Source: Nostoc sp. 106C
GTDB taxonomy: Bacteria; Cyanobacteriota; Cyanobacteriia; Cyanobacteriales; Nostocaceae
Length of the DNA stretch: 46,948 bases
Assembly: GCF_002154725.1 (NCBI RefSeq)
Contig: NZ_MTAW01000100.1
Span: forward strand, 1-46,948
Reading direction: 5' to 3'
Shown here: positions 1,064 to 29,779 of the stretch, in pieces
Layout of the letters: the number at the start of each line of letters is the position of its first letter
Numbering within the stretch: the stretch's first letter is position 1
Notes under the pieces: model-generated
What the model saw: only the letters and a program-made list of their open reading frames with translations
Told to the model about the DNA's origin: nothing
Databases searched by the model: none
Program-made: the position numbers and the translations under genes

Positions 1064-1309
1064 AAATACCTCAATACCTCGCTTAACATCTTCTACAGGG
1101 CTGCTGCTTGATGGAAGACCTTGAAATTTTATGCTCTTTTAGCCATCAAAAAGCTAATTATGTACATCATTTCACAAGTTTGTAGCGGTTTAGCGAGTGT
1201 AAGAAGGCAGTGCCGAATAAAAGCAGAGGAGCAAGGGAGTGTGGGGAGAAATGGGACAAGGAGGACAGGGGGGATAAGGGAGATGAGAGAACTAATGACA
1301 AATGACAAT

Positions 1310-5552: not shown

Positions 5553-8138
5553 ATGTCATCGCATCAACCTAGTATTGATGAGACTGCCGATTTAATTATT
5601 GGAGTTCGCAATCCAGAAAATGGCTATTTACAAGAAGATACTCCTCCTGTAGGTTCCCTGGCTAAAAGACAAGGCACTATTTCTTCTTTTCTAGCTCCTC
5701 TAACACAAGAAACTTTTAAACAGGTTGTTAAAGAAGTCGAACAGAAATTACAGATTGTTCATCAAACTTTGTCAAGACTAGATTCTCATGGGTTTGAAAC
5801 AATCCTCGAAGAAATGTTGCATTCGATTACTTTAAAAACTGGAGAATTATTAGGAGCAGACCGCACCACAATCTTTTTATTAGATGAAGAAAAACAACAA
5901 CTATGGTCAATTTTAGCTGAGGCAGAAGGCGATCGCTCTTTGGAAATTCGCATTCCCGCAGATAAAGGAATTGCTGGTGAAGTTGCGACTTTCAAACAAG
6001 TAATCAATATTCCCTATGATTTTTATCAAGATCCCCGCTCTGTATTTGCTCGGGAACAAGAAAAAATTACTGGTTACCGTACATATACAATGCTGGCTTT
6101 GCCATTGTTGAATGAACATGGAGACTTAGTTGCAGTTGTACAATTACTAAATAAATTAAAATCTGTACATAATCCAGATGCTGCAATTGCAGAACGGATT
6201 GATACCAAAGGCTTTACTAACGCAGACGAAGAATTATTTCAAGAATTTGCGCCATCAATTCGATTGATTTTAGAATCATCGCGCTCCTTTTACGTAGCAA
6301 CCCAAAAACAAAGAGCCGCCGCCGCATTAATGAAAGCGATTAAGTCGCTTTCTCAAAGTAATCTTGACTTAGAAGATACCCTAAAAAGGGTAATGGCAGA
6401 AGCCAAAGAACTAATGAATGCCGATCGCAGTACATTATGGTTAATCGACCGCGATCGCCAAGATCTATGGACAAAAATTACTCAAGATGATGGTTCAACA
6501 AAGGAATTACGAGTTCCCATAGGTAAAGGCTTTGCTGGCATAGTAGCTGCATCGGGTAAAAAGGTGAATATTCCTTTTGACTTGTACGATCATCCAGATT
6601 CGGAGACAGCTAAAAAAATTGATCAAGAAACTAGCTTTCGTACCTGTAGCTTACTTTGTATGCCAGTGTTTAACGCCGACCGACAATTGATTGGCGTTAC
6701 CCAGTTAGTCAATAAAAGAAAATCGGGAGATTTTCCCCCTTACGATCATGCTCTTTGGCCTAAGGCTCCTGAATGCTTCCAAGCGAGTTTCGATCATAAT
6801 GATGAAGAGTTTATGGAAGCTTTTAATATTCAAGCAGGAGTGGCGCTGCAAAATGCTCAGTTATTTGCCACAGTTAAGCAACAAGAACAAATGCAGCGAG
6901 ATATTTTGCGCAGCCTTTCTAATGGTGTAATTTCCACCGATAAAGCCGGGTTAATTATTGCTGCAAATGAAAGTGCCAAACGTTTGTTAGATTTAAAAGA
7001 ACAAGACCGATTAGAAGGTCTATCTATTCAAGATGTCATTACTATTAAAGAAGGTAATTTTAGCAAGTGGTGTGAGAATGCTTTAAATGCAGCTGACTTT
7101 AGGCACCGACAGCAATATTATCCCGATCGCATTCTTCTAACTCCTGGAACAGAACAGCACAGTATAAATTTATCGATTAATACAATTGCTGATGCTAGCG
7201 ACCATAAACAAGTCAGTGGCGCATTAGTAGTTATGGAAGATATTAGCGATGAAAAGCGCCTCAAAAGTACGATGTACCGCTACATGACGCAGGAGTTAGC
7301 AGAGGAATTACTGAAATTAGATGATGCTAAATTAGGCGGTGATCGCAAAGAAGTTTCGATTTTATTTTCAGATATTCGTGGCTATACAACTTTAACGGAA
7401 AATCTAGAAGCTGAAGAAGTTGTAAGTATGCTCAATGAATATTTTGAATCAATGGTAGAGGCAGTTTTTAAACATAAAGGCACCCTCGATAAATACATTG
7501 GTGATGCGATTATGGCTGTGTTTGGTTCTCCTTTACCATTAGAAGAACACGCTTGGATGGCAGTGCAAACAGCTTTAGAAATGCGCCATCGTTTGAAAGA
7601 TTTTAATCACTGTCGGTATTTAGCTAATAAGCCAAGAATCAACATTGGTATTGGCATTAATTCTGATACTGTCATTAGCGGTAATATTGGTTCTAGTAAA
7701 AGAATGGAATTTACAGCCATTGGTGATGGTGTAAACCTCGGTTCCCGACTAGAAAGTGTCAGTAAACAGTACGGCTGTGACATTATTATTAGCGATAACA
7801 CTTATAAACCTTGCCGCGACAATATTTGGGCGAGGGAATTAGATTATATTCGCGTCAAAGGTAGAAATGAGCCAGTAGCTATATATGAACTACTTGGTTT
7901 GCGCTCCGATCCTATTAGTAGCCAAAAACTAGAAGTGATTGACCGTTATCACAAAGGACGTGAGTATTATATTCATCGTCAGTTTAGCTCGGCTCAAGCT
8001 GAGTTTGCCAAAGTTTTGGCTGCTGATAGTAACGACAAAGCTGCTATGTTGCATCTGCGCCGTTGTCAGCATTGGATAGAGTCTCCTCCATCAGATGCAG
8101 ATTGGGATGAAGGTGTTTGGACTTTTAAAGAAAAGTAA
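5553..8138 (+). CDS. cyaB: Class III adenylate cyclase with tandem GAF and PAS domains (CyaB1/CyaB2 type)
   Basis: Makes cAMP from ATP. Domain order (numbering from this ATG, 861 aa): GAF-A about 80-245, GAF-B about 270-435, PAS about 450-565, cyclase homology domain about 598-770 and a short TPR-like tail about 795-835. This matches Anabaena CyaB1/CyaB2 in order and length. Both GAF domains keep the NK...F...DE signature of cyclic-nucleotide binders (N200/K201 with D225/E226; N387/K388 with D417/E418). In the catalytic domain the metal aspartates are D607 and D651, the transition-state pair is N728/R732, and the purine-selecting residues are K647 and T721. Threonine in place of the usual aspartate is known in CyaB1. 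In that family cAMP binding to the GAF pair stimulates the enzyme. In-frame GTG at 5472 and ATG at 5499 exist, but neither has a good binding site and the added residues look non-native. Confidence 0.9.
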   Translation: MSSHQPSIDETADLIIGVRNPENGYLQEDTPPVGSLAKRQGTISSFLAPLTQETFKQVVKEVEQKLQIVHQTLSRLDSHGFETILEEMLHSITLKTGELLGADRTTIFLLDEEKQQLWSILAEAEGDRSLEIRIPADKGIAGEVATFKQVINIPYDFYQDPRSVFAREQEKITGYRTYTMLALPLLNEHGDLVAVVQLLNKLKSVHNPDAAIAERIDTKGFTNADEELFQEFAPSIRLILESSRSFYVATQKQRAAAALMKAIKSLSQSNLDLEDTLKRVMAEAKELMNADRSTLWLIDRDRQDLWTKITQDDGSTKELRVPIGKGFAGIVAASGKKVNIPFDLYDHPDSETAKKIDQETSFRTCSLLCMPVFNADRQLIGVTQLVNKRKSGDFPPYDHALWPKAPECFQASFDHNDEEFMEAFNIQAGVALQNAQLFATVKQQEQMQRDILRSLSNGVISTDKAGLIIAANESAKRLLDLKEQDRLEGLSIQDVITIKEGNFSKWCENALNAADFRHRQQYYPDRILLTPGTEQHSINLSINTIADASDHKQVSGALVVMEDISDEKRLKSTMYRYMTQELAEELLKLDDAKLGGDRKEVSILFSDIRGYTTLTENLEAEEVVSMLNEYFESMVEAVFKHKGTLDKYIGDAIMAVFGSPLPLEEHAWMAVQTALEMRHRLKDFNHCRYLANKPRINIGIGINSDTVISGNIGSSKRMEFTAIGDGVNLGSRLESVSKQYGCDIIISDNTYKPCRDNIWARELDYIRVKGRNEPVAIYELLGLRSDPISSQKLEVIDRYHKGREYYIHRQFSSAQAEFAKVLAADSNDKAAMLHLRRCQHWIESPPSDADWDEGVWTFKEK

Positions 8139-8221
8139 AAGTCAACCCCATCTCCTGCGAAGACGCTACACGAAAGGGGAATTCAAAATTCAAACTTTTA
8201 ATGACTAATAACTAATGACAA

Positions 8222-8797
8222 TCACCACCCAAACGGAGAAAAAATAGAGTGACCGTGACTGTAAAAAGTTAGTCGGCCAAAGCCGAGAAATTGTCCGTGG
8301 GATTTTTCACCTGGGGGAAAAGCTGTAACGCCAAACAAATAAACACCCGAAACACTAGGATTCTGTCGGGGTTGAAGAGCAATTGTAATAGTTCTTCCAG
8401 GCGCTATCGGTGGATCAAATGTTAGTGAGGTTGTTTGAGTTTTGCGATCGCTAGTCGCATCTTTTAATCCTAACTTCTGTCCTTCATGAGAGCGCGTCCC
8501 TTCAAAGGCATAACTGTCTTTGAGATTGAAGCGAATGTAGTCTACTCCCTCACGCTGATTAATGGTTACTCTTTGCAGCGGTTCTCCTGCATTTTCTGGG
8601 AGGCTGAGAGTAAAGTAGTATGTTGCACCCCATATATAAACTTCGTTATAGGTAGTAGAGGCACCAACCAAGCGCGGTGGTGAGGCAAAATATACCGTCC
8701 CATCTTGCAACTGAATTGCTGGACTCGGTTTTGGGGTATATCCTTCTAGCCCAACTACGGTTGCGATCGCTATGCCCAATATAACTGCAACTCGCAT
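8222..8797 (-). CDS. DUF2808 domain protein, probably exported
   Basis: A 191-aa protein matching the cyanobacterial DUF2808 pattern: a hydrophobic N-terminal segment (about residues 3-18) that looks like a signal peptide, then AIQLQDGTVYFASPPRLVGA and a beta-rich body with the Pro-Gly turn PPIAPGRTITIALQPRQNP and the segment VYLFGVTAFPPG. Members are small periplasmic or exported proteins of unknown function found almost only in cyanobacteria. The gene stands alone, and a TTATCTAGATAA palindrome (8802-8813) lies just before its start. No ribosome binding site is evident. Confidence 0.75.
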   Translation of the reverse strand: MRVAVILGIAIATVVGLEGYTPKPSPAIQLQDGTVYFASPPRLVGASTTYNEVYIWGATYYFTLSLPENAGEPLQRVTINQREGVDYIRFNLKDSYAFEGTRSHEGQKLGLKDATSDRKTQTTSLTFDPPIAPGRTITIALQPRQNPSVSGVYLFGVTAFPPGEKSHGQFLGFGRLTFYSHGHSIFSPFGW

Positions 8798-9011
8798 TAC
8801 TTTATCTAGATAATCAAATAGTACTGCTACGCGGAAGTCAAAAGAAGTTTATTCTAGGATTTTGCACCATTTTAAATAGGCACTTGATTTACACCGCGCT
8901 GTACTAGATGCTGTACTAGATAAATTGTATGTTGAAATCTTGTAAAGTACAAAACTCAACAAAATATTTCTATAGATTTAGCCGCTTCTACTTATTTAGA
9001 GAACTCCACAT

Positions 9012-11213
9012 TTATCTATGAGTTTTATAGTAATGTTGGTAACCTCTGTACTTAGTTTTATCTCCATTAGCAACGATACCTAAGAGATTAACTGGAGAAA
9101 TTTTTAGACTATCCTGAGCTTGCATTAGCCCCGATTTATCTGTTTTATCTAACCTCACCACAAGCACAACACCATCAGTGTAAGGTGCTAGCATTCTGGC
9201 ATCAACTAATCCAACTATCGGGGGAACATCATAAATTACTAAATCAAAGGTTCTATGAAAATACCCCATCAGTTGCTTCATCTTTTCTGATGAGAGTAGC
9301 CTTGCAGGATCGGGTGGTATTGGCCCAGAAGTAATTACAGATAAGTTGTTCATCTCAGGCATTTGCCTAATCACCTGCCCTGCTGGTATGTTTGTCGAGA
9401 TTAAACTACTTAATCCCCAGAGGTTATTTAAATCAGATAGGTGATGAACTTGGGGTCGGCGTAAATCAGCATCTACAATTAGTACTCGTTTGCCCATTGC
9501 TGCTGCTATTTGAGCTAGTTGGAATGAAACAGTGGACTTACCATCTCCTGGTAGTGCTGAGGTAATAATTAAGGAGCGAATGGGGTGATCGGAATTAAGC
9601 AGTTGAATATTTGAATATAGTACCTGTAAAGATTCCCAAAATTTGCCTTGACCGTAGTAGCGAGCGCTTCCCGTGTCCTTATGTAAAATTTTAGGTATTT
9701 CAAAAAGTTTGTCAGTAAACTTAAATGACTTTCTTTTGATTAAAGCTTTTGATTCTAGATGGTGATATTGACTATTTTGGACTTTTTTATCAAAAGGTAA
9801 AATCCCTAATACTGGTAATTTGATTTTTTCCTTTAAGCTCTCGACAGTATGGTAGGTATTGTCGGCTTTTTCTAAGAGTAAACTGATGCCAACACCTAAA
9901 AGCAAACTTGCGACAAATCCTAATGTCAAACTACGCGGTACATTAGGAAATATAGGTAATTCAGGTTGAGAAGGTCCTTGGATTAATTCCCAAGGTAGTT
10001 CTGTTTGAGCCGCCTGAATTTGCAGGGTTTCGCGAGTAGTTAAAAAGCGATTTAAACTCTCAGTTGCATTTTGTAAATCTCTTTGGAGCTCGGTATATCT
10101 TCTTGCGAGAACTGGTAATAGCTTAGCTTTTTGTTGGGATTGCTGTTCTACTTTAGCGAGCTCTTGGCTTTGTGCTTCTAAAAACTGAATTTGAGTTGTG
10201 ATCTCAGCAAATTTTACTCCCAAAATACGCTGTGCCTCTTCTTGTAGCAAATTCAACAGGTTTTGTCTTTTCTCCTGTAAAGTTTGCATAACTGGGTTAT
10301 CTGATTTAAACCGAGTTTTTTCTACAGAAATTTGAATGTCTAATTGGCGTAGCTGAACAATTAATTGTTGATAAACAGCCGCATTATTGAGTATAGCTGT
10401 TTCTCCTTGTTCTCCTCTTAGGCTTGCAAAATTAGCGTGAGCTAAAACTAATTGTTGATCAATAGCTATTCTTTGAGCAGACAATGCTTGGAGTTGAGAT
10501 TGAATTTGTTCTACCTGAGCTTCTGGGTTAATAAATTCATATTTCTGACGAAAAATTTGTAACTCTTTTTGTAACTGCTCTACTCTACTTTTGATTGGTG
10601 GCAGTTGTTTTTCGACAAACTGTAAACCTTGTCGTAATTTTGTTTGCCGCTTTTCTAAACTGTAATTCAAATAATATTTGGCAACTAAATCTAGTACTAA
10701 TTTAACCTGTCTCCGATCATTACTTTTATAACTTATTTCTATAATTTTACTTGTACCTAAACGACGAATTGCCAAAGATTCGCTAAGAGTGTAATATCTA
10801 AATTCTGGATAGTTAATTTGCAGTTCCTTTATCAGTCCCGCCATTAGTTCGGGACTTGTGAGTACCTGTATTTGGCTGTCATAATCTAGACCTGGTTGAG
10901 TTACATTTAAATTTGAGTCTGGAGTAAGTCTCGCTAAGTTGTTGTTATCGTTAGTGACAGGTTCTACTAATAACCTAAAATTACTTTGATAAATAGGTTT
11001 CTGATTAATACTTGAGTAAGTAACACCGCCCATCACAACAGTTGTAACTCCTGCAATGACGAACGCTCGTCTTTTTAAAATACTTAGAAATTGCTGTAAA
11101 TTCCAATCATTATTTTCGCTAGCAAACCATGAAAAGCTTTGAGCAGGAAGTGCTTGATACTGGGCACTGCCATTCCGTTCATAGCTTGAGCTTTTAGTGA
11201 AATGATTCTCCAT
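9012..11213 (-). CDS. wzc: Polysaccharide chain-length regulator and tyrosine autokinase (Wzc/BY-kinase type)
   Basis: Inner-membrane co-polymerase that sets polysaccharide chain length and autophosphorylates on tyrosines (733 aa). Wzz-type N-terminal region with a first membrane span about 51-67, a long periplasmic coiled coil about 190-400, and a second span about 428-447 preceded by the Pro-rich stretch typical of Wzz proteins. The cytoplasmic kinase has Walker A PGDGKST (555-561), Walker A' VLIVDADLRRP (577-587) and Walker B LVIYDVPP (658-665). The C-terminal tail is tyrosine-rich (Y722, Y725, Y728, Y729), the cluster that is trans-phosphorylated in this family. It is transcribed away from the glycosyltransferase array across a long spacer and marks the left border of the glycan locus. 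No Wza channel or Wzb phosphatase is adjacent. Confidence 0.9.
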   Translation of the reverse strand: MENHFTKSSSYERNGSAQYQALPAQSFSWFASENNDWNLQQFLSILKRRAFVIAGVTTVVMGGVTYSSINQKPIYQSNFRLLVEPVTNDNNNLARLTPDSNLNVTQPGLDYDSQIQVLTSPELMAGLIKELQINYPEFRYYTLSESLAIRRLGTSKIIEISYKSNDRRQVKLVLDLVAKYYLNYSLEKRQTKLRQGLQFVEKQLPPIKSRVEQLQKELQIFRQKYEFINPEAQVEQIQSQLQALSAQRIAIDQQLVLAHANFASLRGEQGETAILNNAAVYQQLIVQLRQLDIQISVEKTRFKSDNPVMQTLQEKRQNLLNLLQEEAQRILGVKFAEITTQIQFLEAQSQELAKVEQQSQQKAKLLPVLARRYTELQRDLQNATESLNRFLTTRETLQIQAAQTELPWELIQGPSQPELPIFPNVPRSLTLGFVASLLLGVGISLLLEKADNTYHTVESLKEKIKLPVLGILPFDKKVQNSQYHHLESKALIKRKSFKFTDKLFEIPKILHKDTGSARYYGQGKFWESLQVLYSNIQLLNSDHPIRSLIITSALPGDGKSTVSFQLAQIAAAMGKRVLIVDADLRRPQVHHLSDLNNLWGLSSLISTNIPAGQVIRQMPEMNNLSVITSGPIPPDPARLLSSEKMKQLMGYFHRTFDLVIYDVPPIVGLVDARMLAPYTDGVVLVVRLDKTDKSGLMQAQDSLKISPVNLLGIVANGDKTKYRGYQHYYKTHR

Positions 11214-13039: not shown

Positions 13040-14479
13040 ATGACATTCAGTGAATGGCTGAAAAAATCGTTGCTAACCAAATCTACCAACAAGGTTTCTC
13101 AAAATCAGCAACTGTATCAAACTGATAGAGATTTGTTGTCACATGAAAAAGTTAACTTCGAGAATGGAAGACACCATAATGGAGAGAGTTTTCGCACATT
13201 TGCGTTGTCTCCTCTAGCCCAACGTCAGTCTTTAGGAGTAAATCAAACTTGGTATGAGCAGTCGCTGAACTTATCTGTAATCACTGAGTTTTTTCCCCCA
13301 GACTATGCTGCCACAGGGCAGCTGATTGAAGAACTGGTGAGACAGTTAGGGAAACAAGGAGTAAACATTGAGGTGTTTACAGGTCAACCAGGGTATGCCT
13401 TTGGGACTTCTAGTGCTCCTGCGGTAGAACAAGTAGGTCGAGTCCGCATTCAACGATCGCGCACTGCTCAACTGTGGTCGCGGCGGCTTCGTGGTAAAGC
13501 TATCAATGGTATCTTGTTTACCTTGCGTTCTGTACTGCATCTAGTTAAATGTTGCCGTCGCCACGATGTCTGTTTACTGACTTCAGCACCTCCATTTTTA
13601 CCAATTGTGGGATATTTAGCCCATTTGTTTTTCGGGCTTTCTTATGTGTGTTTAATTTATGACATTTATCCTGATATTGCGATCGCGCTGGGAGTAATCC
13701 CCAAAAATCACTGGCTGGCTGGTTTCTGGCAAGCTGTTAACAGAAAAATTTGGCAAAGGGCTAAAGGAATAGTGGTTTTAAGTCCTGCGATGAAACAGCG
13801 GGTAGTGGCTATCTGTCCAGAGGTAGCAGATAAGGTTTCCGTGATTCATAGTTGGGGAGATCCTGACTTGATCGTGCCCATTGTAAAAAAAGATAACTGG
13901 TTTGCTAAGAAATATGATTTAGTGAAAAAATTTACCGTACTTTATTCCGGTAACATGGGTCGGTGTCATGATATGGACACCATTTTAGAAGCAGCAAAAC
14001 AACTGCAAGATGAGCCAATTCAGTTTGTCTGCATTGGTGGGGGCGCAAAACACGAAGGTGTGATTCAGGAGGTCAATCGATTAGGTTTAAACAATTTTCT
14101 TTTTCTGCCTTATCAAGACAAACAAGTATTACCCTACTCACTGACAGCTTGCGATCTATCGTTGGTGAGTGTAGAAGCTGGCATGGAAAGTTTAGTTGCA
14201 CCTAGCAAGCTTTACCCAGCTTTGGCAACGGGACGTCCAGTGGCAGTAATCTGCTCAGAGTATTCTTACTTAAGACAACTAATTACAGAGGCGCAATGTG
14301 GCGCTAGTTTCGAGAATGGTGACAGTTACGGACTAGCTGAGTTTATTCGCTTACTTAATAGGGATAAACAACTGGCAGAACTCATGGGTCAGGCATCTCG
14401 TAAGTATTTGCAGTCGCATTTTACGCCTGAAATCATAGCTAAACAATATTTAAGAGTCCTGCAACAGGCTATTTCTTAA
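13040..14479 (+). CDS. GT4 glycosyltransferase, WbuB-like
   Basis: GT-B fold sugar transferase (479 aa) that adds one sugar from a nucleotide donor to the growing lipid-linked glycan. Motifs: PPDYAATGQL at 86-95 (N-domain acceptor loop), YDIYPD 207-212, LYSGNMGRCHD 301-311 opening the donor domain, and PSKLYPALATGRPV 388-401 where the nucleotide sugar is bound. These are typical of the WbuB-like branch. About 75 residues precede the first strand, a longer N-terminus than usual; a later start is possible, although AAAGGA stands 11 bases before this ATG. It is the first gene of the rightward array. Donor and acceptor are unknown. Confidence 0.8.
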   Translation: MTFSEWLKKSLLTKSTNKVSQNQQLYQTDRDLLSHEKVNFENGRHHNGESFRTFALSPLAQRQSLGVNQTWYEQSLNLSVITEFFPPDYAATGQLIEELVRQLGKQGVNIEVFTGQPGYAFGTSSAPAVEQVGRVRIQRSRTAQLWSRRLRGKAINGILFTLRSVLHLVKCCRRHDVCLLTSAPPFLPIVGYLAHLFFGLSYVCLIYDIYPDIAIALGVIPKNHWLAGFWQAVNRKIWQRAKGIVVLSPAMKQRVVAICPEVADKVSVIHSWGDPDLIVPIVKKDNWFAKKYDLVKKFTVLYSGNMGRCHDMDTILEAAKQLQDEPIQFVCIGGGAKHEGVIQEVNRLGLNNFLFLPYQDKQVLPYSLTACDLSLVSVEAGMESLVAPSKLYPALATGRPVAVICSEYSYLRQLITEAQCGASFENGDSYGLAEFIRLLNRDKQLAELMGQASRKYLQSHFTPEIIAKQYLRVLQQAIS

Positions 14480-14851: not shown

Positions 14852-15277
14852 GTGCAGAGAAGGTGTGACCGAAATCGAAAACGTTCTAAACGACGAGCTA
14901 TATATTGTCTGATTCATGGGTGCTACATGAATAGTATGAGCCAAAAATACGGGTTGTTTGCTGAACGGGCAGGACAGCTACAACAACGAGGAATCAAACG
15001 ACGAGAGGCCTTGATGTTAGTGGCAGCCAAGACGGCTGTTCCTTTAGAAGGTGAATGGTTAGAAGCCTTTTGGTGTGAAGAATGCCAAGAAACCAAGTGG
15101 TATCACATTTGTAAGCGCGACTCTAGTTATGAGTTATCACTAGCACCACCAGAACTTTGGCAACAGGCAACGGGGGTAATGCATCCAAATGGAAACCCTT
15201 CTGTCGGAGAGTTCACTAGCAGACATTCCCGGATGATGAATCACCGAAGCATTCAGGATTTTAAGTTTATGTACTAA
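14852..15277 (+). CDS. Conserved-looking unknown protein with Cys/His pairs
   Basis: A 141-aa protein with a GTG start chosen because GGAGG stands seven bases upstream, the clearest ribosome binding site nearby. The first 20 residues are very basic (RRCDRNRKRSKRRA). A Cys-x2-His-x-Cys set (C19, H22, C24) and a later CEEC pair followed by a W-Y-H-x-C stretch could bind a metal, which suggests a small zinc-ribbon-like or nucleic-acid-associated protein; that is inference only. No signal peptide or membrane span is seen. It sits inside the glycan locus but has its own promoter and leader, so it may be unrelated to glycan synthesis. I do not recognise the family with confidence. Confidence 0.6.
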   Translation: MQRRCDRNRKRSKRRAIYCLIHGCYMNSMSQKYGLFAERAGQLQQRGIKRREALMLVAAKTAVPLEGEWLEAFWCEECQETKWYHICKRDSSYELSLAPPELWQQATGVMHPNGNPSVGEFTSRHSRMMNHRSIQDFKFMY

Positions 15278-16317: not shown

Positions 16318-16542
16318 GGGGCACAGCATTGCTCATACGTGTCAACTTAACGTGAAACCCTTGTTAAAACGTGATTTTGTATTCACTCACTTACCATTAC
16401 GATCCTCGTCACCCCACCCCAGTTTTGTCTAAAGCCAAAACTTCCCCTCCCCGCAGGCGGGGAGGGGATTAAGGGGTGGGGTAAAACGTATATGGGATAA
16501 GCGTTTGAGCTTAAGTTGACACCAATGAGCAATGCTGTGCCC
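16318..16542. mobile_element. MITE-like non-autonomous element upstream of gmd
   Basis: About 225 bases bounded by imperfect terminal inverted repeats of about 34 bases: the left end begins GGGCACAGCATTGCTCAT, and the reverse complement of the right end reads the same 18 bases and then shares GTGTCAACTTAA. The interior has no reading frame and contains a CCCTCCCCGCAGGCGGGGAGGG palindrome-type core. Part of the right half recurs at 40-115 with three mismatches. The element ends about 55 bases before the gmd start, so gmd transcription must start inside it, read through it, or begin in the short remaining gap. Confidence 0.7.
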
Positions 16543-16596
16543 TTTGTGCTGTAAATGTGGAACCGCCGATCAATTTTGATGAAGTGAGACAAATTG

Positions 16597-17556
16597 ATGA
16601 AAAAAGCTCTGATTTGTGGAATATCTGGTCAAGATGGAGCTTACCTAGCGCAATTGCTTCTCAATCAAGGCTATTCAGTTTGTGGTACTTCCCGCGATGC
16701 TCAAATTTCTTCCTTTCAAAATTTGCTGCACTTAGGAATTCGAGACCAGGTAAAGCTAGAGTCAATGGCTTTAACTGACTTCCGCAGTGTGTTGCAGGTA
16801 CTAACAAAAATTCAACCAGATGAAATCTACAACTTGGCAGGACAAAGTTCAGTTGGTTTATCCTTTGGTCAACCAGTAGAAACTTTAGAAAGTATAGCCA
16901 CTGGTACTCTCAATTTATTAGAAGCTGTTCGCTTTTTAGGTGCACCAATCAAAGTTTACAATGCTGGTTCTAGTGAGTGTTTTGGTGATACTGGCGAGAC
17001 AGCAGCTGATGAAACAACACCGTTCCGTCCTAGAAGCCCTTATGCTGTAGCAAAAGCCACGGCTTTTTGGGAAGTTGCTAACTACCGCGAAGCTTACGGT
17101 TTATTTGCCTGTTCGGGAATTTTGTTTAATCACGAATCTCCCCTGCGGCCAGAAAGATTTGTCACTCAAAAAATTATTGCTGGTGTCTGTCGCATTGCTC
17201 AAGGTAGTACTGAGAATGTCTATTTAGGAAATATGCAAATTCAGCGTGACTGGGGTTGGGCACCAGAATATGTTGAGGCAATGTATTTAATGTTGCAACA
17301 AGAACAACCCGATGATTATGTAATTGCTACTGGAGAAAGCAGTTCCTTAGAAGATTTTGTGGCTGCTGCTTTTGCATCTGTAGATTTAGATTGGCGTAAG
17401 CATGTGGTGATAGATAGTAGCCTATTAAGACCAACAGATTTAGCAGTGGGTAGAGGAAATCCAGCTAAAGCTAAGAACAAGTTGGGATGGCAAGCAAAAT
17501 ACAAGACGAAAGATGTGGTGCAGATGATGGTTCAAGCAAGGTTAGCTAAGTCATGA
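16597..17556 (+). CDS. gmd: GDP-mannose 4,6-dehydratase
   Basis: Converts GDP-D-mannose to GDP-4-keto-6-deoxy-D-mannose, the branch point to GDP-fucose, GDP-rhamnose and GDP-perosamine. Extended SDR fold, 319 aa: NAD(P)-binding GISGQDG (8-14), catalytic S125/E127 in GSSECFG, Tyr149-x3-Lys153 in SPYAVAKA, and the family block NHESPLRPERFVTQKI (178-193) followed by RDWGWAPEYVEAM. The ATG is chosen over the TTG three bases earlier. The protein is slightly shorter than many Gmd enzymes. No reductase, epimerase or aminotransferase to complete the sugar is visible in the window. It is followed directly by a dead ABC permease, an arrangement that echoes ABC-dependent O-antigen loci. Confidence 0.9.
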   Translation: MKKALICGISGQDGAYLAQLLLNQGYSVCGTSRDAQISSFQNLLHLGIRDQVKLESMALTDFRSVLQVLTKIQPDEIYNLAGQSSVGLSFGQPVETLESIATGTLNLLEAVRFLGAPIKVYNAGSSECFGDTGETAADETTPFRPRSPYAVAKATAFWEVANYREAYGLFACSGILFNHESPLRPERFVTQKIIAGVCRIAQGSTENVYLGNMQIQRDWGWAPEYVEAMYLMLQQEQPDDYVIATGESSSLEDFVAAAFASVDLDWRKHVVIDSSLLRPTDLAVGRGNPAKAKNKLGWQAKYKTKDVVQMMVQARLAKS

Positions 17557-17574
17557 CAATGAAAGACACCATTC

Positions 17575-18006
17575 CTCAGCCCAATTTAGTGTGTTTTCTG
17601 CAATGTTGCCTTGACAGTTCTTTTCAAATGCGCTTTCAGAATGCAGCAATAGTTTGATTAGCAATGCCAATTTAATTTCTAAAGTCTACTTTCCTCGCTT
17701 AGTAGTGCCGACAAGTTCTGTAGTGGTAAGCTTTGTAGATTTTTTAGTATCCGGCATGATTTTGTTGGGGTTAATGGCTTGGTATAATTCTGTCCCGAGT
17801 TGGCGAATTTTAACACTACCTCTATTTATTGCGATCGCCTTTGCTGCTTCAATGGCTACCGGATTATAGCTGGCTTCGTTAAATGTGAAGTATCGAGATT
17901 TTCGTTATATTGTGCCGTTTATTGTGCAATTTGGTTGTATATCTCGCTAGTGGGATTTAGCAGCAGTATTGTGCCAGAACAGTGGCGCTTGCTCTACTCC
18001 TTAAAT
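17575..18006 (+). pseudogene. Decayed ABC-2 polysaccharide export permease (Wzm/RfbA type)
   Basis: Stitched across frames, the segment reads LVFSAMLP-QFFSNALSE, then NLISKVYFPRLVVPTSSV, ILTLPLFIAIAFAASM, LASLNVKYRDFRYIVPF, VPEQWRLLYSLN, which is the mid-to-late part of a polysaccharide ABC permease. Lesions: a two-base insertion near 17591; TGA at 17612-17614 and TAG at 17867-17869, each where the family has tryptophan; a one-base deletion near 17933; loss of the N-terminal third; and loss of everything after 18006. No ATPase partner (Wzt) remains. It sits between gmd and a Wzx-type flippase. Confidence 0.85.
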
Positions 18007-18133
18007 TTAACAATTGCAAATCTTTTTAGAATCTAATCTATTATCTTAAATGCTTTCCGTGATTAACAACAGGGTCATGTAACGACCAAACTATGTTATG
18101 AAATTTCTTAATTTAGTTAAACTAAGCAACTAA

Positions 18134-19405
18134 ATGTACCTATCTTTTTTACCGTCTAATTTTGTCCATTGGTTGAAGATACTAAGTAAATTTGTTTCTA
18201 TCCAAATTGTAGTTCAAGCTTTGGGGCTAGTAAGCGGAATTTGGTTAGTTCGGACACTAGACCAGCAACAATATGCCTATTTCACTATTGCTAATACAAT
18301 GCAGGCAACAATGAATTTGCTGGCTGATATAGGCATTAGTACAAGTATATCTGCAATTGGAGGGAAAGTTTGGCAAGATCGCTACCGTTTTGGTCAGTTA
18401 ATAAATACTGCAATGCGGTTGCGATACTTTTTAGCAACTATTTCAGTTACTATAATTACGCCTATTTTAATTTGGATGTTAATTCAAAATGGTGCTTCAA
18501 CAATTTATGCAATTTTAATATCTATTGTAGTTTTAGCCGGATTAAATTTTCAGCTAACATCTGATGTTTTAATAGTAGTACCTCGCTTTCATTCTCAAAT
18601 TAATAAAATGCAGAAATTAGATTTATTTTCTGCATTTTTTAGGATCGTATTTATCGGCTTAGGTTACTTAACTTTTTGGAATGCCGGAGTAGCAATTGCA
18701 TCTACATCTCTCGTATCAGGATTACAGCGTTTTGTTTTAGGGGGTTGGGTTAGCGAAAACATTGATATGCAGTCGCCTTTTAATAATGAAGATAAAAATT
18801 TTATACTAAAAACTATTAAAAATACACTGCCTTCTACTATTTTCTTTTGCTTTCAAGGGCAACTAAGTATTTTTATTATTACCATATTTGGTAATACAAA
18901 AAGCATAGCAGAAATAGGTGCTTTAGGACGAATAAGTATTATTTTTACACTAATTAATTCGGTGATGACTGCAATTATTTTACCAAGTTTTTCTCGTTGT
19001 CAATCAGCCAAACTGTTAACTAAACGTTATTTACAAATATTAAGTATATTTTTTGGATTTGGTTTATTATTAATTTTTTTATCAGTAATTTTTCCTAGCG
19101 AAATACTTTGGATTCTTGGAGGAAAGTATCAGCACCTTAAAAATGAATTAGTACTGATGGTTATTTTAACAGTGGTAAATTCTTTTGTCGGAATCATGTC
19201 TTCTTTAAATTTTTCCAAAGCTTGGATTGAGTTTATTTGGATTGAAATACCAATGAGATTAGTTTTGCAAGCTATTTTGCTAATGATTTTAAATATCTCA
19301 ACAATTCAAGGAGTTATTTGGTTGAGTTTGTTATCAAATATTTCTCCCTTTTTAGTCAATGCAATGCTTACATATAGAGGTTTAAAAAGTTACAATGCTA
19401 CTTAA
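18134..19405 (+). CDS. Polysaccharide flippase, Wzx/MOP family
   Basis: Polytopic inner-membrane protein (423 aa, about 11-12 hydrophobic segments) that would flip the undecaprenyl-linked repeat unit to the periplasm. The N-terminal SIQIVVQALGLVSGIWLVRTLDQQQYAYFTIA is typical of Wzx/RfbX-like MOP exporters (small residues in span 1, then an RxL-x4-YAYF segment). The gene is markedly A+T-rich with many ATA/TTA codons compared with gmd, a common sign of imported glycan genes. It starts 128 bases past the dead ABC permease and opens a run of closely spaced genes to 23994. Substrate specificity cannot be read. Confidence 0.8.
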   Translation: MYLSFLPSNFVHWLKILSKFVSIQIVVQALGLVSGIWLVRTLDQQQYAYFTIANTMQATMNLLADIGISTSISAIGGKVWQDRYRFGQLINTAMRLRYFLATISVTIITPILIWMLIQNGASTIYAILISIVVLAGLNFQLTSDVLIVVPRFHSQINKMQKLDLFSAFFRIVFIGLGYLTFWNAGVAIASTSLVSGLQRFVLGGWVSENIDMQSPFNNEDKNFILKTIKNTLPSTIFFCFQGQLSIFIITIFGNTKSIAEIGALGRISIIFTLINSVMTAIILPSFSRCQSAKLLTKRYLQILSIFFGFGLLLIFLSVIFPSEILWILGGKYQHLKNELVLMVILTVVNSFVGIMSSLNFSKAWIEFIWIEIPMRLVLQAILLMILNISTIQGVIWLSLLSNISPFLVNAMLTYRGLKSYNAT

Positions 19406-19516
19406 CATAGCAAAGATATCAAAATTTATTTTCGTAGAAAAAGCTCTTTTAAGACAATTTTTTTGATTTTTTAAACGTCAATTGGTTATATAACTTCAGT
19501 AGTAACAGATAGAGCC

Positions 19517-20038
19517 ATGACTGTATTATCCGTTGGTTGCGGTCTCAAACCACCACAAAACGATTTAGTTAGATTAGATATATCCTCAGCAGTAAATCCT
19601 GATGTAGTTTGGGATTTAGAAAAAACTCCTTATCCGTTTAATGATTCAAGCTTTTCTGAAATTGAATGTTTGGATGTTATAGAACATCTAGGATGTATTC
19701 CAAATGCTTTAGAGGAATTCCATCGCATTCTAAAACCTGAGGGTGTACTTAAGATAACTACACCTCATTTTTCTTGTGCCAACTCATACATAGACCCAAC
19801 CCACAAATGGCATTTAAGTTATTTCTCTTTTGATTATTTCTCTAATAGCCATAATTTGTCATATTACTCAAAAGCTAGATACCGAATTAAATATCGTCAT
19901 CTACAATTTCAAGGTAGTAGATTCAATCGTTCTATTGTAAGTAGATTAGCTAACAAATTTCCTAAAAATTATGAGCAAAGATGGGCTTGGATGTTTCCAG
20001 CTTGGTATCTTTATTTTGAATTAGAGGCTATTAAATAA
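19517..20038 (+). CDS. Class I SAM-dependent methyltransferase (Methyltransf_11-like)
   Basis: A compact 173-aa Rossmann methyltransferase. Motif I is LSVGCGLKPP at 4-13, so the protein begins directly with the first strand and lacks the helical cap of longer relatives. Then come the RLDIS acidic end of strand 2, CLDVIEHL (motif II), and RILKPEGVLKITTPH (motif III). Shortness and position between a flippase and a glycosyltransferase suggest O-methylation of a sugar in the repeat unit; acceptor and position are unknown. It is 22 bases upstream of the next gene. Confidence 0.75.
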   Translation: MTVLSVGCGLKPPQNDLVRLDISSAVNPDVVWDLEKTPYPFNDSSFSEIECLDVIEHLGCIPNALEEFHRILKPEGVLKITTPHFSCANSYIDPTHKWHLSYFSFDYFSNSHNLSYYSKARYRIKYRHLQFQGSRFNRSIVSRLANKFPKNYEQRWAWMFPAWYLYFELEAIK

Positions 20039-20060
20039 GGCTAGTATTAAGCATTTAATT

Positions 20061-21164
20061 ATGAAAATTGTTCATGTTACTCCTACTTATTTTGATGAAT
20101 CATCAATTATTGGTGGTGGAGAGCGATATCCCACAGAATTAGCTACTTGGATGGCAAATTTTGTAGATACTACTCTCGTAAGTTTTTCTTCAGCGCGGAG
20201 AAATTATCATCAAGGTGATCTTAAAATCGAGACATATCCAGTTAAAAAATTAATTCATGGGAATAAGATCAATCCATTAAGTTTTCAATATCTACGTTCA
20301 ATTATAAATTCTGATATAGATATAGTACATATACACCATATTCATACTCTAGTTTCTGACCTGGGCTGTCTTCTAGCAGCTTTGCTTGGTAAACGAGTTT
20401 TTGTTACTGACTATGGTGGTGGAGGAAGCTTAGTTTTAAACCAGAAACTACCAGTGTTTAGAGGCTATAAAAATGCGATCGCCTATTCTCGCTTTGGTCT
20501 AGATTTTATTCCTGTTGAACTTCAAGAAAAATCTGTTTTAATTAAAGGAGGTATTGATACAAATAAATTTTGTGCTGATACATCTTTAAAAAAAGAAAAT
20601 AATATTTTGTATGTAGGCAGAATTTTACCTCACAAAGGCATCAACTATTTAATTGATGGATTTCGTCTACTCAATCGTTCAGACTACAAACTAAAAATTG
20701 TTGGAAGAGTCTACAGTGAAGAATTCTACCAAGACCTTAAACAGCAAGCAGATGGACTAAATGTAGAATTTATTCACGATGCTGACGATCAGCAATTACT
20801 GCATGAGTATCGCACAGCGATGGTAACGGTTTTACCATCAGTTCACACTAGCTGCTATGGAGACTACACTCCAGTTCCAGAGTTAATGGGTTTTACTTTA
20901 TTAGAATCTCAAGCCTGTGGAACGCCTGTGATCTGTACTGATGCTGGTGCAATGCATGAGTTTGTAGATAACGGGAAGACTGGGTTTGTGGTTAAACAGA
21001 ACTCTGGAGAGGCGATCGCTGTTACTTTGCGTCAAATTGTTGACTTACCTTCTTCAGAATATGAGAAATATCAAAACTATTGTCGTGATTGGATAACACC
21101 TCTCGGTTGGTTAACAGTAGTCAAGAAACATTTAGAAATTTATACAAGAAAGTCTCAGTTTTGA
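20061..21164 (+). CDS. GT4 family glycosyltransferase
   Basis: GT-B sugar transferase (367 aa). The N-domain opens KIVHVTPTYF with an IGGGERYPTELA acceptor loop. VHIHHIHTLVSDLG lies in the N-domain, the hinge leads to ILYVGRILPHKGINYLIDGF, and the donor site has GFTLLESQACGTPVICTD (E-x7-type motif). The insertion HTSCYGDYTPVPELMG before the donor motif is longer than usual. The stop codon overlaps the next ATG by one base (TGATG), which indicates translational coupling. Sugar and linkage are unknown. Confidence 0.8.
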   Translation: MKIVHVTPTYFDESSIIGGGERYPTELATWMANFVDTTLVSFSSARRNYHQGDLKIETYPVKKLIHGNKINPLSFQYLRSIINSDIDIVHIHHIHTLVSDLGCLLAALLGKRVFVTDYGGGGSLVLNQKLPVFRGYKNAIAYSRFGLDFIPVELQEKSVLIKGGIDTNKFCADTSLKKENNILYVGRILPHKGINYLIDGFRLLNRSDYKLKIVGRVYSEEFYQDLKQQADGLNVEFIHDADDQQLLHEYRTAMVTVLPSVHTSCYGDYTPVPELMGFTLLESQACGTPVICTDAGAMHEFVDNGKTGFVVKQNSGEAIAVTLRQIVDLPSSEYEKYQNYCRDWITPLGWLTVVKKHLEIYTRKSQF

Positions 21165-23994: not shown

Positions 23995-24214
23995 ATTTAC
24001 TCTAAATAATCTGTTTGATGATTTTCAAACGTAGCTATCTAAGTAAATAAGTAGCTCAACCTAATTAAATGTGAAATGTCATTACGTTGGCGCAACGCCT
24101 TCCCGTAGGGTACGGAACAGAGTTTAGCGTTCGCCTAACGTCTCGCAGAGAAGTAATCGCTAAAAATCTATTTTACGTTTTTCACAGTTGACCTACTTAT
24201 TAAGCATTAAAATT
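23995..24214. other. Spacer with palindromic mosaic
   Basis: Contains the GC-rich palindrome cluster at 24078-24160, related in style to 4046-4182. The rest is AT-rich. The dead duplicate begins at about 24215. Confidence 0.5.
24078..24160. repeat. Interspersed palindrome cluster
   Basis: Short inverted units such as GCGCAACGCCTTCCCGTAGG and GCGTTCGCCTAACGTC occur in a GC-rich block within an AT-rich spacer. Same class of dispersed cyanobacterial repeats as 4046-4182. Confidence 0.55.
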
Positions 24215-24476
24215 CAAGCCCAACTCAGACAGGCATATCTGCCAAGTTCATCTAGGTCGCCTTGAACAACTTGCTCATAAAGCAGGATTAGTTGTTCAGG
24301 AGACTCGTTTACTAACTAACTCACTCACTAACGGTCATATAAAACTCCACTATTTATTAAAATTGCTATCAGCATCTTAGATTGACATATGTGAAAAACT
24401 GACTTGCTCTCTACCTTTACCAATAAGGCGTAAATTGCATACTACTACAGTCGCTTTATTGACTGATGTGAATTAA
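24215..24476 (+). pseudogene. 3' fragment of a methyltransferase gene
   Basis: Corresponds to the last about 87 codons of the intact methyltransferase at 25014-25817. The reading frame shows LEQLAHKAGLVVQETRLLTN and then in-frame stops, including TAG where the intact copy encodes tryptophan (SWIQ). No start and no catalytic half are present. Confidence 0.85.
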
Positions 24477-24485
24477 AAATAAATT

Positions 24486-24869
24486 ATGAGTATGAGTAAT
24501 TTGGCTTCAGTCATCTCCATTGTTCCTCGACTGCCTCCGGCTATCAATGGTGTGGGAGACTATGCACTCAATTTAGCTTGTGAGCTTCGCACGAACTTTA
24601 ATATTCAAACTCATTTTATTGTTGACAACCCGACTTGGGTTGGTGCAGCAAAAATTGAAGGATTTCCTATAAGCGAAATTAGTAATCGCTCTTTTGATGT
24701 ATTGCTAACTTTATTATCAGGCGATCGCACTTCTAGCATCCTGCTGCATTATGTAGGTTAAGGTTATGCTAACCGGGGTTGTCCAATCTGGTTAGTCGAT
24801 GGGTTACAGCGCTGGAAAAATTTATTTCCAAAGCGATCGCTCATAACTATGTTTCACGAAATCTCTGCT
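24486..24869 (+). pseudogene. 5' fragment of a glycosyltransferase gene
   Basis: Starts MSMSNLAS like the intact gene at 25827 and follows it residue for residue. It is broken by TAA at 24759-24761 where the intact copy has TAC (Tyr), then continues GYANRGCPIWLVDGLQRW and stops matching at 24869. The 91 codons before the stop could still be translated, but they hold only part of the N-terminal Rossmann half. Confidence 0.85.
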
Positions 24870-25013: not shown

Positions 25014-25817
25014 ATGAAAAAGCTTAAAAAAAGACAAGATTGGCATGAAAGTTGGAAATATAGTTATCCTTATGATTTACTAGAAGTCTATGAAGATAAT
25101 AAACAAACTGGATATTATTTTGCTTATGCAAATCGACGTAAACATACACTCCAACTAATTCAAAAAGTTGCTAAACCTGGAGCAAAAATTTTAGATGTGG
25201 CTGCTGCTCAAGGAAATTTCAGTTTGTTATTAGCAGAAATGGGTTATAACGTTACCTGGAATGATTTGCGAGACGAACTCATTGATTATGTAAAATTAAA
25301 GTGGGAGTATGGCAAAATTAGTTATGCACCAGGTAACATTTTTACACTAAACTTTGATCATCAGTTTGATGTAGTTTTAATTGCTGAAGTAATTGAGCAT
25401 GTAGCTCATCCTGACGAGTTTTTGAGAAAAATTTCTCAAATGCTTAAACCAGGAGGCTATATAGTTCTAAGTACACCTAACGGCGAATATTTTAAGAATA
25501 ATTTACCAAGGTTTTCAGACTGCCCAGATCCCAGTCAATTTGAAGCAGTACAGTTTAAGCCTAACTCAGATGGTCATATTTTCCTACTTCACCTAGATGA
25601 AGTTGAACAACTGGCTAATAAAGCAGGATTAGTTGTTGAGGAGATTCGTTTATTAACTAACTCGTTAACTAACGGTCATATAAAACTCCACTATTTATTA
25701 AGGCTGCTACCAGTATCTTGGATTCAAATATGTGAAAAATTGACTAGCTCTCTACCTTTACCACTAAAACGCAAATTGCATACTACGACAGTCACTTTAT
25801 TGACTCATACGAAATAA
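25014..25817 (+). CDS. Class I SAM-dependent methyltransferase
   Basis: Rossmann methyltransferase (267 aa). A helical N-terminal cap of about 60 residues, then motif I ILDVAAAQGNFSLLLAEMG, in which the usual GxGxG is AAAQG. NDLRDEL ends strand 2, VVLIAEVIEHVAHPDEFL is motif II and MLKPGGYIVLSTPNGEYF is motif III. Probably methylates a sugar of the repeat unit (inference from context). Its last third is duplicated upstream as a dead fragment. It is nine bases from the following glycosyltransferase, with which it seems to form an old two-gene module. Confidence 0.8.
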   Translation: MKKLKKRQDWHESWKYSYPYDLLEVYEDNKQTGYYFAYANRRKHTLQLIQKVAKPGAKILDVAAAQGNFSLLLAEMGYNVTWNDLRDELIDYVKLKWEYGKISYAPGNIFTLNFDHQFDVVLIAEVIEHVAHPDEFLRKISQMLKPGGYIVLSTPNGEYFKNNLPRFSDCPDPSQFEAVQFKPNSDGHIFLLHLDEVEQLANKAGLVVEEIRLLTNSLTNGHIKLHYLLRLLPVSWIQICEKLTSSLPLPLKRKLHTTTVTLLTHTK

Positions 25818-26210
25818 CAATAAATTATGAGTATGAGTAATTTGGCTTCAGTTTTCTCCATTGTTCCTCAACTGCCTCCGGCAATCGATGGTGTGGGAGA
25901 CTATGCCCTCAATTTAGCTCGCCAGATCCGCAAAGACTTCAATATTCAAACTCATTTTATTGTTTGTAACCCGACTTGGGTTGGTGCAGTAGAGATAGAA
26001 GGGTTTTCTATAAGCCAAGTTATTGATCGCTCTGCCAATGCATTGCTAACTTTATTATCAGGCGATCGCACTTCTAGCATCTTGCTGCATTATGTAGGTT
26101 ACGGCTATGCTAACCGAGGTTGTCCAGTCTGGTTAGTCGATGGGTTACAGCGTTGGAAAAATTTATTTCCAGAGCGATCGCTCATAACCATGTTCCACGA
26201 AATCTCTGCT
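25556..26210 (+). repeat. Intact copy of the 655-bp direct duplication (copy 2)
   Basis: Partner of 24215-24869; contains the end of the methyltransferase and the beginning of the glycosyltransferase, both with open reading frames. Confidence 0.9.
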
Positions 26211-26921
26211 TCCGGCCCGCCTTGGACAAGCGCTTTTTGGCTTTCACCTGTGCAAAAAAATTTAGCAGCACGTTTGGCACAATTGAGCGATCGCTGCATC
26301 ACTAGCAAACAACTCTACGCTCAAATACTTGCTAATTTCCGCCGATGTAAACATAATCAAATTCCAGCATTGCCAGTTTTTTCCAATATAGGTGAACCAG
26401 ACAAAGTGCTTCCTTTGCCAGAACGCCAGCAAAGATTAGTGATTTTTGGCTCTGTTGCTAACCGCTCAAGAGTTTACCAAAACTGTCAAACAACACTAGA
26501 TTATGTTTGCAATGAGTTAAGCATTCAAGAAATTTGGGATGTAGGAACTCCAACCGAGTTGACTCCATCGTCTATAGGCAAAATACCAATCCTCGAGGTA
26601 GGAGAGCAACCAGCTAACAAAGTGAGTGACATTTTGGCTGATTCTGTTGCTGGTTTCTCGGACTATAATCCAGATTTTTTAGCTAAATCCACTATTTTTG
26701 CCTCCTACTGCGCTCATCGGCTACTACCAATAAATGCTAAAGGTAGCACCTCAGTCATTGATGGTATAGAACCCAGTACGCACTATTGGGTTCCTAACAG
26801 CCAAAAAAATGTTTTGGTTGATGAAGTTGGAAGACAGGCGATCGCAGATAACGCTTATTCTTGGTATCTCACTCATCGTTTATTATTCCAAGCTGAAATA
26901 TTTGCCCAAATTTTTAACTAG
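25827..26921 (+). CDS. Glycosyltransferase, GT-B fold
   Basis: A 364-aa protein whose first half has the Rossmann pattern of GT4 enzymes: SIVPQLPPAIDGVGDYALNLA (acceptor-side Gly loop), ILLHYVGYGYANRGCP and SLITMFHEISASGPPW. The second half is divergent and the usual E-x7-E donor motif is not obvious; ADSVAGFSDYNPDFLAKSTIFASYCAHRLLPI occupies the matching position. I therefore rate activity less certain than for the other transferases, though the frame is intact. Two ATG codons (MSMS) are available; the first is used. Confidence 0.65.
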   Translation: MSMSNLASVFSIVPQLPPAIDGVGDYALNLARQIRKDFNIQTHFIVCNPTWVGAVEIEGFSISQVIDRSANALLTLLSGDRTSSILLHYVGYGYANRGCPVWLVDGLQRWKNLFPERSLITMFHEISASGPPWTSAFWLSPVQKNLAARLAQLSDRCITSKQLYAQILANFRRCKHNQIPALPVFSNIGEPDKVLPLPERQQRLVIFGSVANRSRVYQNCQTTLDYVCNELSIQEIWDVGTPTELTPSSIGKIPILEVGEQPANKVSDILADSVAGFSDYNPDFLAKSTIFASYCAHRLLPINAKGSTSVIDGIEPSTHYWVPNSQKNVLVDEVGRQAIADNAYSWYLTHRLLFQAEIFAQIFN

Positions 26922-28771: not shown

Positions 28772-29779
28772 ATGAAAATTCTGATTTACTCTCCTTCTTT
28801 CTACCCCAATATTGGCGGATTAGAAACAATAATTTTTACATTAGCACATGAGTTTACGTATCAACTAAATGAAGTAAAACTAATATCCCAAACTCCAGCA
28901 ACAGACTCACAAAAATTTCCCTTTGAAGTTATCCGTAAACCTACTATAAAACAAGTCGTAGAACTAACTCATTGGTGTGATGTTTATTTCCAAGGTTGTG
29001 TCAGTTTAAGAGGAATTTGGCCCCTATTATTAGTACATCGCCCCTTGGTTGTAACCCATCAAACTTGGTATCGTCATGACAATGGAGGTATAGGTTGGCA
29101 AAATCATCTGAAACATTTTGTGGCTCGTTTTGCAACTAATATCTCAGCTAGTCAGGCTGTAGCTAAACCAATCCCAGCACCATCTAATATAATTCCTAAT
29201 TCTTATCGAGAAGATGTTTTTTATGAAATACCTAATATTCACCGTAATCAAGAACTAGTATTTTTAGGACGCTTGGTTTCTGACAAGGGAGCCAACTTAT
29301 TATTAGAGGCATTATCTCATCTCAAATTGCTGGGTCTCACTCCTAGATTGACGATTATTGGTAGTGGACCTGAAGAATCTCAATTACGACAGCAAGCTAA
29401 CGACTTAGAAATCTTTGAGCAAGTCAACTTTGCTGGTGTAAAAGTTGAGCATGAATTATCTGAATTATTAAATGCTCATCAAATTATGGTAGTGCCTTCT
29501 CTATGGGATGAACCTTTTGGCATCGTAGCCTTAGAAGGAATTGCCTGTGGTTGTGTTATTGTTGGTTCCGAAGGAGGAGGATTAAAAGATGCAATTGGTG
29601 CTTGTGGTGTAACATTTCCTAACGGTAATGTTGAACGATTAACTCAAATTTTATTCGACTTACTCAGCTATCCTGAGAAATTAACCACTTATAGAGAACA
29701 AGCTAAAGCTCACTTAGCCTGTCACACTAGTAAAGCCGTTGCCAAAGCATACCTTGAAGTTATCGAGGGAGTAATTTAA
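28772..29779 (+). CDS. GT4 family glycosyltransferase
   Basis: GT-B transferase (335 aa). ILIYSPSFYPNIGGLETIIF is the N-terminal strand and acceptor loop, VFLGRLVSDKGANLLLEAL starts the donor domain, IIGSGPEESQLRQQA follows, and FGIVALEGIACGCVIVGSEGG is the donor motif. Its stop overlaps the ATG of the polymerase gene by one base (TAATG). The tight coupling suggests it acts on the same repeat unit that the polymerase handles. Confidence 0.8.
   Translation: MKILIYSPSFYPNIGGLETIIFTLAHEFTYQLNEVKLISQTPATDSQKFPFEVIRKPTIKQVVELTHWCDVYFQGCVSLRGIWPLLLVHRPLVVTHQTWYRHDNGGIGWQNHLKHFVARFATNISASQAVAKPIPAPSNIIPNSYREDVFYEIPNIHRNQELVFLGRLVSDKGANLLLEALSHLKLLGLTPRLTIIGSGPEESQLRQQANDLEIFEQVNFAGVKVEHELSELLNAHQIMVVPSLWDEPFGIVALEGIACGCVIVGSEGGGLKDAIGACGVTFPNGNVERLTQILFDLLSYPEKLTTYREQAKAHLACHTSKAVAKAYLEVIEGVI

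Follow-up and report, generated by a model that had tools for sequence, protein, structure and literature searches.

A wzm pseudogene between gmd and a Wzx-like flippase candidate gene in the surface-glycan locus of Nostoc sp. 106C, and a possible change of export machine

Organization of the locus

The window, i.e. the whole stretch of 46,948 nucleotides that was analysed, is contig C232 in the draft genome of Nostoc sp. 106C (8.66 Mb, 240 contigs). It carries a variable surface-glycan cluster. The left block (genes at 9012, 13040 and 14852) and varying subsets of the right-hand genes (39150 to 45393) recur around different middles in relatives. The features are as follows.

9012–11213, − strand: left flank, Wzz/BY-kinase (Wzc-like) protein (PF02706, AAA_31; TIGR01007 over cut-off), present at the locus in 7/7 other genomes of the genus
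13040–14479, + strand: left flank, WcaI-like glycosyltransferase (PF00534; WcaI-family matches below cut-off), left of gmd/wzm in relatives
14852–15277, + strand: left flank, conserved 141-aa protein with no Pfam match, adjoining gmd or wzm in relatives
16594–17556, + strand: intact gmd, GDP-mannose 4,6-dehydratase (PF16363, 370 bits), with orthologues of 89–93% in 6/7 other genomes of the genus
17553–17590, + strand: retained 5' end of wzm, with the start codon overlapping the gmd stop and about 12 codons, in unbroken DNA alignment with L026
17591–18005, + strand: remaining wzm relic past an internal deletion, with two stops, a 1-nt frameshift and no 3' end
18006–18133, + strand: wzx leader of 128 nt, common to G052 (7 mismatches); left edge of a horizontally shared segment, the junction being ambiguous by about 3 nt
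18134–19405, + strand: Wzx-like flippase candidate, 423 aa with about 10 hydrophobic spans, 96% to G052 and 50% to the gene directly 3' of gmd in G108
19517–21164, + strand: methyltransferase and glycosyltransferase (PF08241, PF00534) within the same segment, 93.8% nucleotide identity to G052 over 18003–21144
29779–31140, + strand: polytopic protein of 453 aa, candidate Wzy or ligase (matching NF038300 HpsL weakly), with a homologue in the G108 locus
39150–45884, + strand: right flank (39150–39920, 41312–42142, 42354–42929, 42947–43603, 45393–45884), varying subsets of which are common to ABC-type and Wzx-type loci

Just upstream of gmd, at 16319–16542, is a MITE-like element whose terminal inverted repeats are 44 nt long and 86% complementary. 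Sequences matching both of its arms are also present upstream of gmd in L026, the gmd–wzm–wzt locus of genome G088.

Lesions of the wzm relic

A pseudogene of wzm, which encodes an ABC-2 polysaccharide permease, occupies 17553–18005 directly 3' of gmd. A preliminary description, made from the sequence, had placed it correctly after gmd but at 17575–18006. The wzm start codon (17553–17555) overlaps the stop of gmd, which ends at 17556, and the same overlap is found in G088 and G003. From a point upstream of gmd (16504) as far as 17590, the DNA aligns with L026 without a break (87.8% identity), a range that spans the start codon and the first 12 or so codons of wzm. The alignment resumes over 17591–18005 at 81% identity, after approximately 223 nt of the intact gene have been skipped. 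Truncation at both ends had been described. The loss of the 3' end is borne out, approximately 163 nt of wzm coding sequence being missing in the alignment to L026, whereas a 5' truncation is rejected because this alignment is continuous from gmd through the wzm start.

The relic contains one TGA and one TAG in frame. The intact copies have TGG at both sites, in agreement with the preliminary assignment of both stops to tryptophan positions. The frameshifts described earlier are also present: a 1-nt change at 17935, and the internal deletion, which shifts the frame as well. With the stops, the frameshift, the deletion and the lost 3' end, no open reading frame of the expected length of approximately 280 codons is left, and the gene is a pseudogene. 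As the genome is a draft in 240 contigs, one might consider that a working wzm was misassembled or wrongly sequenced. However, the lesions are several and of unlike kinds, the 3' end and wzt are lost together, the genes on both sides are intact, and the leader past the junction is approximately 95% identical to that of G052 (7 of 128 positions mismatched). Such an error is extremely improbable.

Relatives of the relic

The best translated matches of the relic are ABC-2 permeases, as had been read from the fragments. The 113-residue stretch encoded by 17597–17935, with X at both stops, shows up to 92% amino acid identity to intact permeases (G119; 91% for G118), and the intact permeases matching it have 278–302 residues. 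The fragment matches 116 of 118 family genomes at E ≤ 0.001, and many of these matches are distant permeases. Among the matches listed, the close full-length homologues (73–90% identity) are free of stops except for the window's own copy. A second wzm-like copy in G073 (G073:C1:1280505–1280702 and 1289495–1289647) is apparently split, its halves lying approximately 9 kb apart, and is possibly a broken wzm.

The best intact relative in the same genome is at C117:51529–51867 (83% identity, E 3.1e-58). It scores 66.9 bits against PF01061 (cut-off 26.9), and an adjoining ABC ATPase is the genome's best match to the G088 wzt (68%). This means that the cell retains an ABC export pair at another locus. 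It is the only close intact wzm–wzt pair that was found in the genome and lies in the middle of another contig (103 kb); a pair elsewhere in the same locus, which the preliminary description had named as evidence against its reading, was not found.

The presence of this pair might suggest that the relic is a stray decayed duplicate of another genomic wzm that never belonged to this operon. The relic DNA is, however, 74% identical to the C117 gene and 81–88% identical to wzm at the syntenic locus in six genomes of the genus, and it runs on from gmd through the ancestral overlap. These identities led to the rejection of the C117 paralogue as its source. The relic is orthologous to the intact wzm of the same locus, and an origin as a stray duplicate is very improbable.

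The locus in other genomes

In five of the seven other genomes of the genus (G088, G003, G118, G119 and G120), the syntenic locus carries intact gmd, wzm and an ABC ATPase, the last called by motifs. G119 and G118 have a further frame between wzm and the ATPase gene. The G088 ATPase is over the cut-off for ABC_tran and below that for Wzt_C. G056 has intact wzm–wzt at the syntenic place without gmd (compared over 36 kb, the right flank being outside that stretch), which brings the total with wzm–wzt to six of seven. Thus the arrangement that the preliminary description had proposed to look for in sister strains does exist, in five genomes with gmd and in a sixth without it. A cognate Wzt ATPase adjoins wzm in these six genomes and does not in the window. 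A surviving trace of wzt further along the window was also rejected, the best of five wzt queries giving E 0.29. In G108, gmd is followed by a Wzx-like gene (50% to that of the window), and no wzm was found at that locus.

In an rpoB tree of 14 genomes, the sister of the window's genome is G056 (94.8% identity; supports 100/99). Within the genus, the other Wzx-type genome, G108, groups with the five ABC-type genomes and not with the window and G056. From this placement, and from the six ABC-type genomes among the seven others, the ABC state in the genus is commoner and more likely the older. The two Wzx states of the genus thus arose separately or carry separately acquired alleles, since G108 is not the sister of the window's genome.

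Among 118 family genomes, 25 others have gmd at 78% identity or more. A permease match starts within 0.6 kb downstream of gmd in at least eight of these 25 (G052, G088, G003, G002, G029, G099, G027 and G073). For 29 of the listed permease loci outside the window's genome, taken with short flanks (L014–L042), wzt was seen within the flank in 20 and not in nine, of which L018 and L022 end at contig ends; two of the nine were followed further, G032 (described below) and G002, in which wzt is approximately 2 kb beyond the short flank. It should be mentioned that gmd itself decays at the G034 locus (L038), as only two end pieces of it (42 and 39 aa) are found there upstream of an intact wzm.

The Wzx-like gene and the class of the locus

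The protein encoded by 18134–19405 gave no match to a polysaccharide flippase family (PF01943 or kin) and no solved homologue, in both cases at E ≤ 1. One of its 17 homologues matches PF01943 (E 2.4e-5). Against two PF01943 sets, hhalign gave E values of 0.039 (probability 1%) and 2.8e-4 (41%), over 80–82 columns only, and three unrelated controls gave 0.19–0.26. Its position, size and hydrophobic spans, together with these weak family matches, might suggest a Wzx-like flippase. The polytopic protein encoded by 29779–31140 reaches 39 bits against NF038300 HpsL (cut-off 640) and has no Pfam match.

A polytopic protein (431–497 aa, no Pfam match) is likewise encoded in each of the five ABC-type sister loci that have gmd. 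For this reason, a Wzy-like protein was dropped as a mark of the Wzx route, and translocation may be the only step that distinguishes the ABC and Wzx locus classes. A Wzz/Wzc co-polymerase is present in the window (9012–11213; PF02706, TIGR01007), and the ABC-type sisters have one too. The Wzx and Wzy labels of the set described earlier find weak support in sequence families. In addition, genes matching PF01943 were found in 9/9 genomes searched. In this genome, the best-scoring one is located outside the window, on contig C181. Such a flippase gene lies approximately 21–25 kb left of gmd in each of the five ABC-type sisters (G120:C83, G119:C171, G003:C1, G088:C1 and G118:C1), which means that Wzx-class genes are not absent from them.

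Mosaic structure and timing

When the window is compared with G052, which belongs to another genus, the identity is 86.5% over gmd and over the relic, and then rises to 93.8% over 18003–21144. In 300-bp bins it is 96–98% up to approximately 19.8 kb and 91–95% after that. The step is located at 18003, within 3 nt of the relic end. The rpoB identity between the two genomes is 89.5%, and dS is 0.086 for wzx and 0.74 for gmd. Since the identity of approximately 96% in wzx exceeds that of rpoB and its dS is far below that of gmd, the wzx segment is horizontally shared, with its left edge at, or brought to, the relic end. The 2.5 kb that separate wzm from the wzx leader in G052 (18157–20638 of the G052 stretch) are missing in the window.

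The mismatches in the leader correspond to a divergence of 0.057 over both lineages, or approximately 0.03 per lineage. In pairwise comparisons with G118, G119 and G056, the relic has a dN of 0.030–0.034, as against 0.013–0.016 among those three, and the relic's own branch has dN 0.024 and dS 0.37. The low dN relative to dS on this branch means that the relic diverged mostly under constraint and that its death was recent, roughly of the same order as the per-lineage divergence of the leader, a dating that rests on one short fragment with no error model. The locus appears to have swapped its export machine fairly recently. The relic has 12 private changes (3/6/3 at the three codon positions), and the intact wzm of G052 has 15 (3/4/8). 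Replacement changes are only slightly in excess in the relic, and the codon-position test for lost constraint is only suggestive. The dN of the orphan wzm of G052 is also raised (0.054 to G118 and G119, 0.038 to G056). Relaxed constraint on this gene is hinted at by these values, but G052 is a genome from outside the genus. The orphan wzm of G176 shows no such excess (0.033–0.036 to G118 and G119).

The whole locus from approximately 9007 is 74.8–87.1% identical to that of the sister G056, compared with 92.5% for the left surroundings (1054–8963); the locus is exchanged relative to G056. The relic tree is poorly resolved, with 2 of 12 inner branches starred; it places the fragment with G052 (90/84) and G118 (86/92), in both cases on a branch without a star, and not with G056. 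Because of this drop in identity and this grouping, import of the gmd–wzm stretch may have preceded the switch, and part of what the relic records may be the past of an imported haplotype.

It might further be supposed that the relic was already broken when the haplotype was imported, and that it records a switch in another lineage rather than in the ancestors of this cell. The divergence from G056 and the relic tree would both fit such an import. On the other hand, among the close matches listed the stops are in the window's copy alone, G052 has an intact wzm although it shares the wzx segment at approximately 96%, and the step at 18003 indicates that the relic and wzx have separate histories. 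Arrival of the relic in a broken state is rather unlikely.

Wzx-type loci and intermediate states

A match to the Wzx-like protein of the window was found in 19 of 217 family genomes, including its own. Among the 18 others, G111 and G016 gave short, weak matches and were set aside. Six of the 16 genomes left are at the window's locus by the left flank: G108, G052, G191, G032, G176 and G185. At the other ten (L093–L095, L097–L103), no gmd or wzm of at least 45% identity was found beside wzx (short flanks in eight; also 20 kb in G087 and G208).

This gives seven Wzx-type loci at the same position, the window included. The order in the window is gmd, dead wzm and wzx. In G052, it is gmd, intact wzm, a Uma2-like and other frames, and wzx (96%); no wzt was found within 70 kb, and the best match of that genome to the G088 wzt is only 45%. 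G032 has intact wzm, a Uma2-like frame, a 3' piece of gmd and wzx, with no wzt found on its 38.8-kb contig. G176 has intact wzm, gmd, a Uma2-like frame, gmd pieces and wzx, with no wzt found within 20 kb. In G191, a 70-aa wzm stub is followed by gmd, a Uma2-like frame that is itself split, a 3' piece of gmd and wzx. In G185, gmd is followed by a 31% relative of Wzx, and no wzm was found at the locus. Thus wzm is intact in three of the seven loci, a fragment in two and not found in two. The loci of G052, G032, G176 and G191, from three other genera, are intermediate states, with either an orphan wzm beside wzx or a wzm stub. The gmd pieces that precede wzx in G032, G176 and G191 suggest that the incoming wzx cassette brought its own gmd.

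The Uma2-like frame between wzm/gmd and wzx starts with MYQTDPP or similar in L109 (G052), L111 (G032), L113 (G191) and L149 (G176). Related frames are also seen near gmd/wzm in G002 (L051) and G029.

Proposed course of the switch

The explanation that we consider best, with a probability of roughly 0.82, is that the relic is the remains of the wzm of a Wzm/Wzt exporter that formerly followed gmd, and that it came about by the following inferred order of events. The ancestral variable surface-glycan locus would have exported its polymer through Wzm/Wzt encoded after gmd. A segment with the Wzx-like flippase gene (approximately 18003 to 21.1 kb) would then have been acquired horizontally, and wzt and the 3' end of wzm lost. 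With neither its partner nor its substrate pathway left, the rest of wzm would have decayed. The present locus might export lipid-linked units through the Wzx-like protein, as judged from the gene content. The export switch of the preliminary description is supported in this form, with the qualifications given by the surviving ABC pair on C117, the exchange of the locus relative to G056 and the weak Wzx/Wzy label.

Two paths are compatible with this explanation. In one, wzx was first added beside wzm, giving an overlay like that of G052; wzt then disappeared, and a subsequent deletion of approximately 2.5 kb fused wzm to the wzx leader. G052, G032 and G176, which have intact wzm and wzx and in which no wzt was found, are in line with this path, and so is the lack of 18157–20638 of the G052 stretch in the window. 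The alternative is a single replacement event with the break inside wzm, which explains the identity step at the junction itself without a second event. The overlay path has about an even chance.

Beyond the window, it may tentatively be proposed, at slightly less than even odds, that in this family ABC exporters have given way to the Wzx type repeatedly and stepwise. In such a series, wzx would enter beside the exporter, wzt would be lost first, wzm would stay on as an orphan (perhaps still used), and it would then decay and vanish. If this is true, the window is one frame of the series, and a change of export class goes by way of mixed loci and does not in every case replace the whole cluster cleanly.

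Comparison with known systems

The alternation of export classes at one locus is already known elsewhere; what is added here is a relic that has been preserved and a graded series that spans genera. The Wzm/Wzt system moves whole chains, and the Wzx route moves single units (PMC4390846). At the O-antigen locus of Haemophilus parainfluenzae, between glnA and pepB, Wzy-type and ABC-type strains share one site, as the loci of the window's family do. The authors suggested recent exchange in two lineages, called the shared site unusual and thought reassortment constrained (PMC3989065). However, the two groups there share almost no genes, and the portion of that paper covered here describes no dead permease, whereas gmd and the flanks are shared in the present family and a wzm relic and intermediates are found. 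In Plesiomonas shigelloides, the clusters between rep and aqpZ are of wzx/wzy or wzm/wzt type according to serogroup (PMC9723277). The class alternation is similar, but no relics of the other class are reported in the portion covered.

The Aeromonas hydrophila OX6 cluster contains both wzm/wzt and wzx/wzy, the first instance according to its authors (PMC6124807). It is comparable to the mixed loci of G052, G032 and G176, although both sets are named in OX6, whereas in the present loci wzt was not found and wzm is orphan or dead. The gmd–wzm–wzt order of the Dickeya O-antigen cluster (PMC7877592) is that of the sister genomes; the portion covered describes no Wzx replacement after gmd. In cyanobacteria, surveys of exopolysaccharide genes reported that the distribution of Wzx and KpsM/Wzm depends on the strain (PMC4594306) and that the genes are organized in a mosaic, which suggests recombination (PMC4390846), and the portions covered describe no switch at the level of a locus and no wzm pseudogene. 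Within the part of the open PMC literature covered, neither a wzm pseudogene beside wzx nor class alternation in cyanobacteria was found. Cyanobacterial LPS has been described as a phage receptor (PMC4390846). The roughly datable relic, together with the orphan-wzm states at the same syntenic locus in other genera, makes the path of the switch directly testable, and in cyanobacteria.

A second relic in the window

Another relic is located at 24198–24869. It consists of pieces like the methyltransferase encoded by 25014–25817 (76%) and stands directly before the intact copies. It also resembles the protein encoded by 25827–26921 (83%; open frame 24486–24761). Its portion 24516–24869 is 86% identical to G052.
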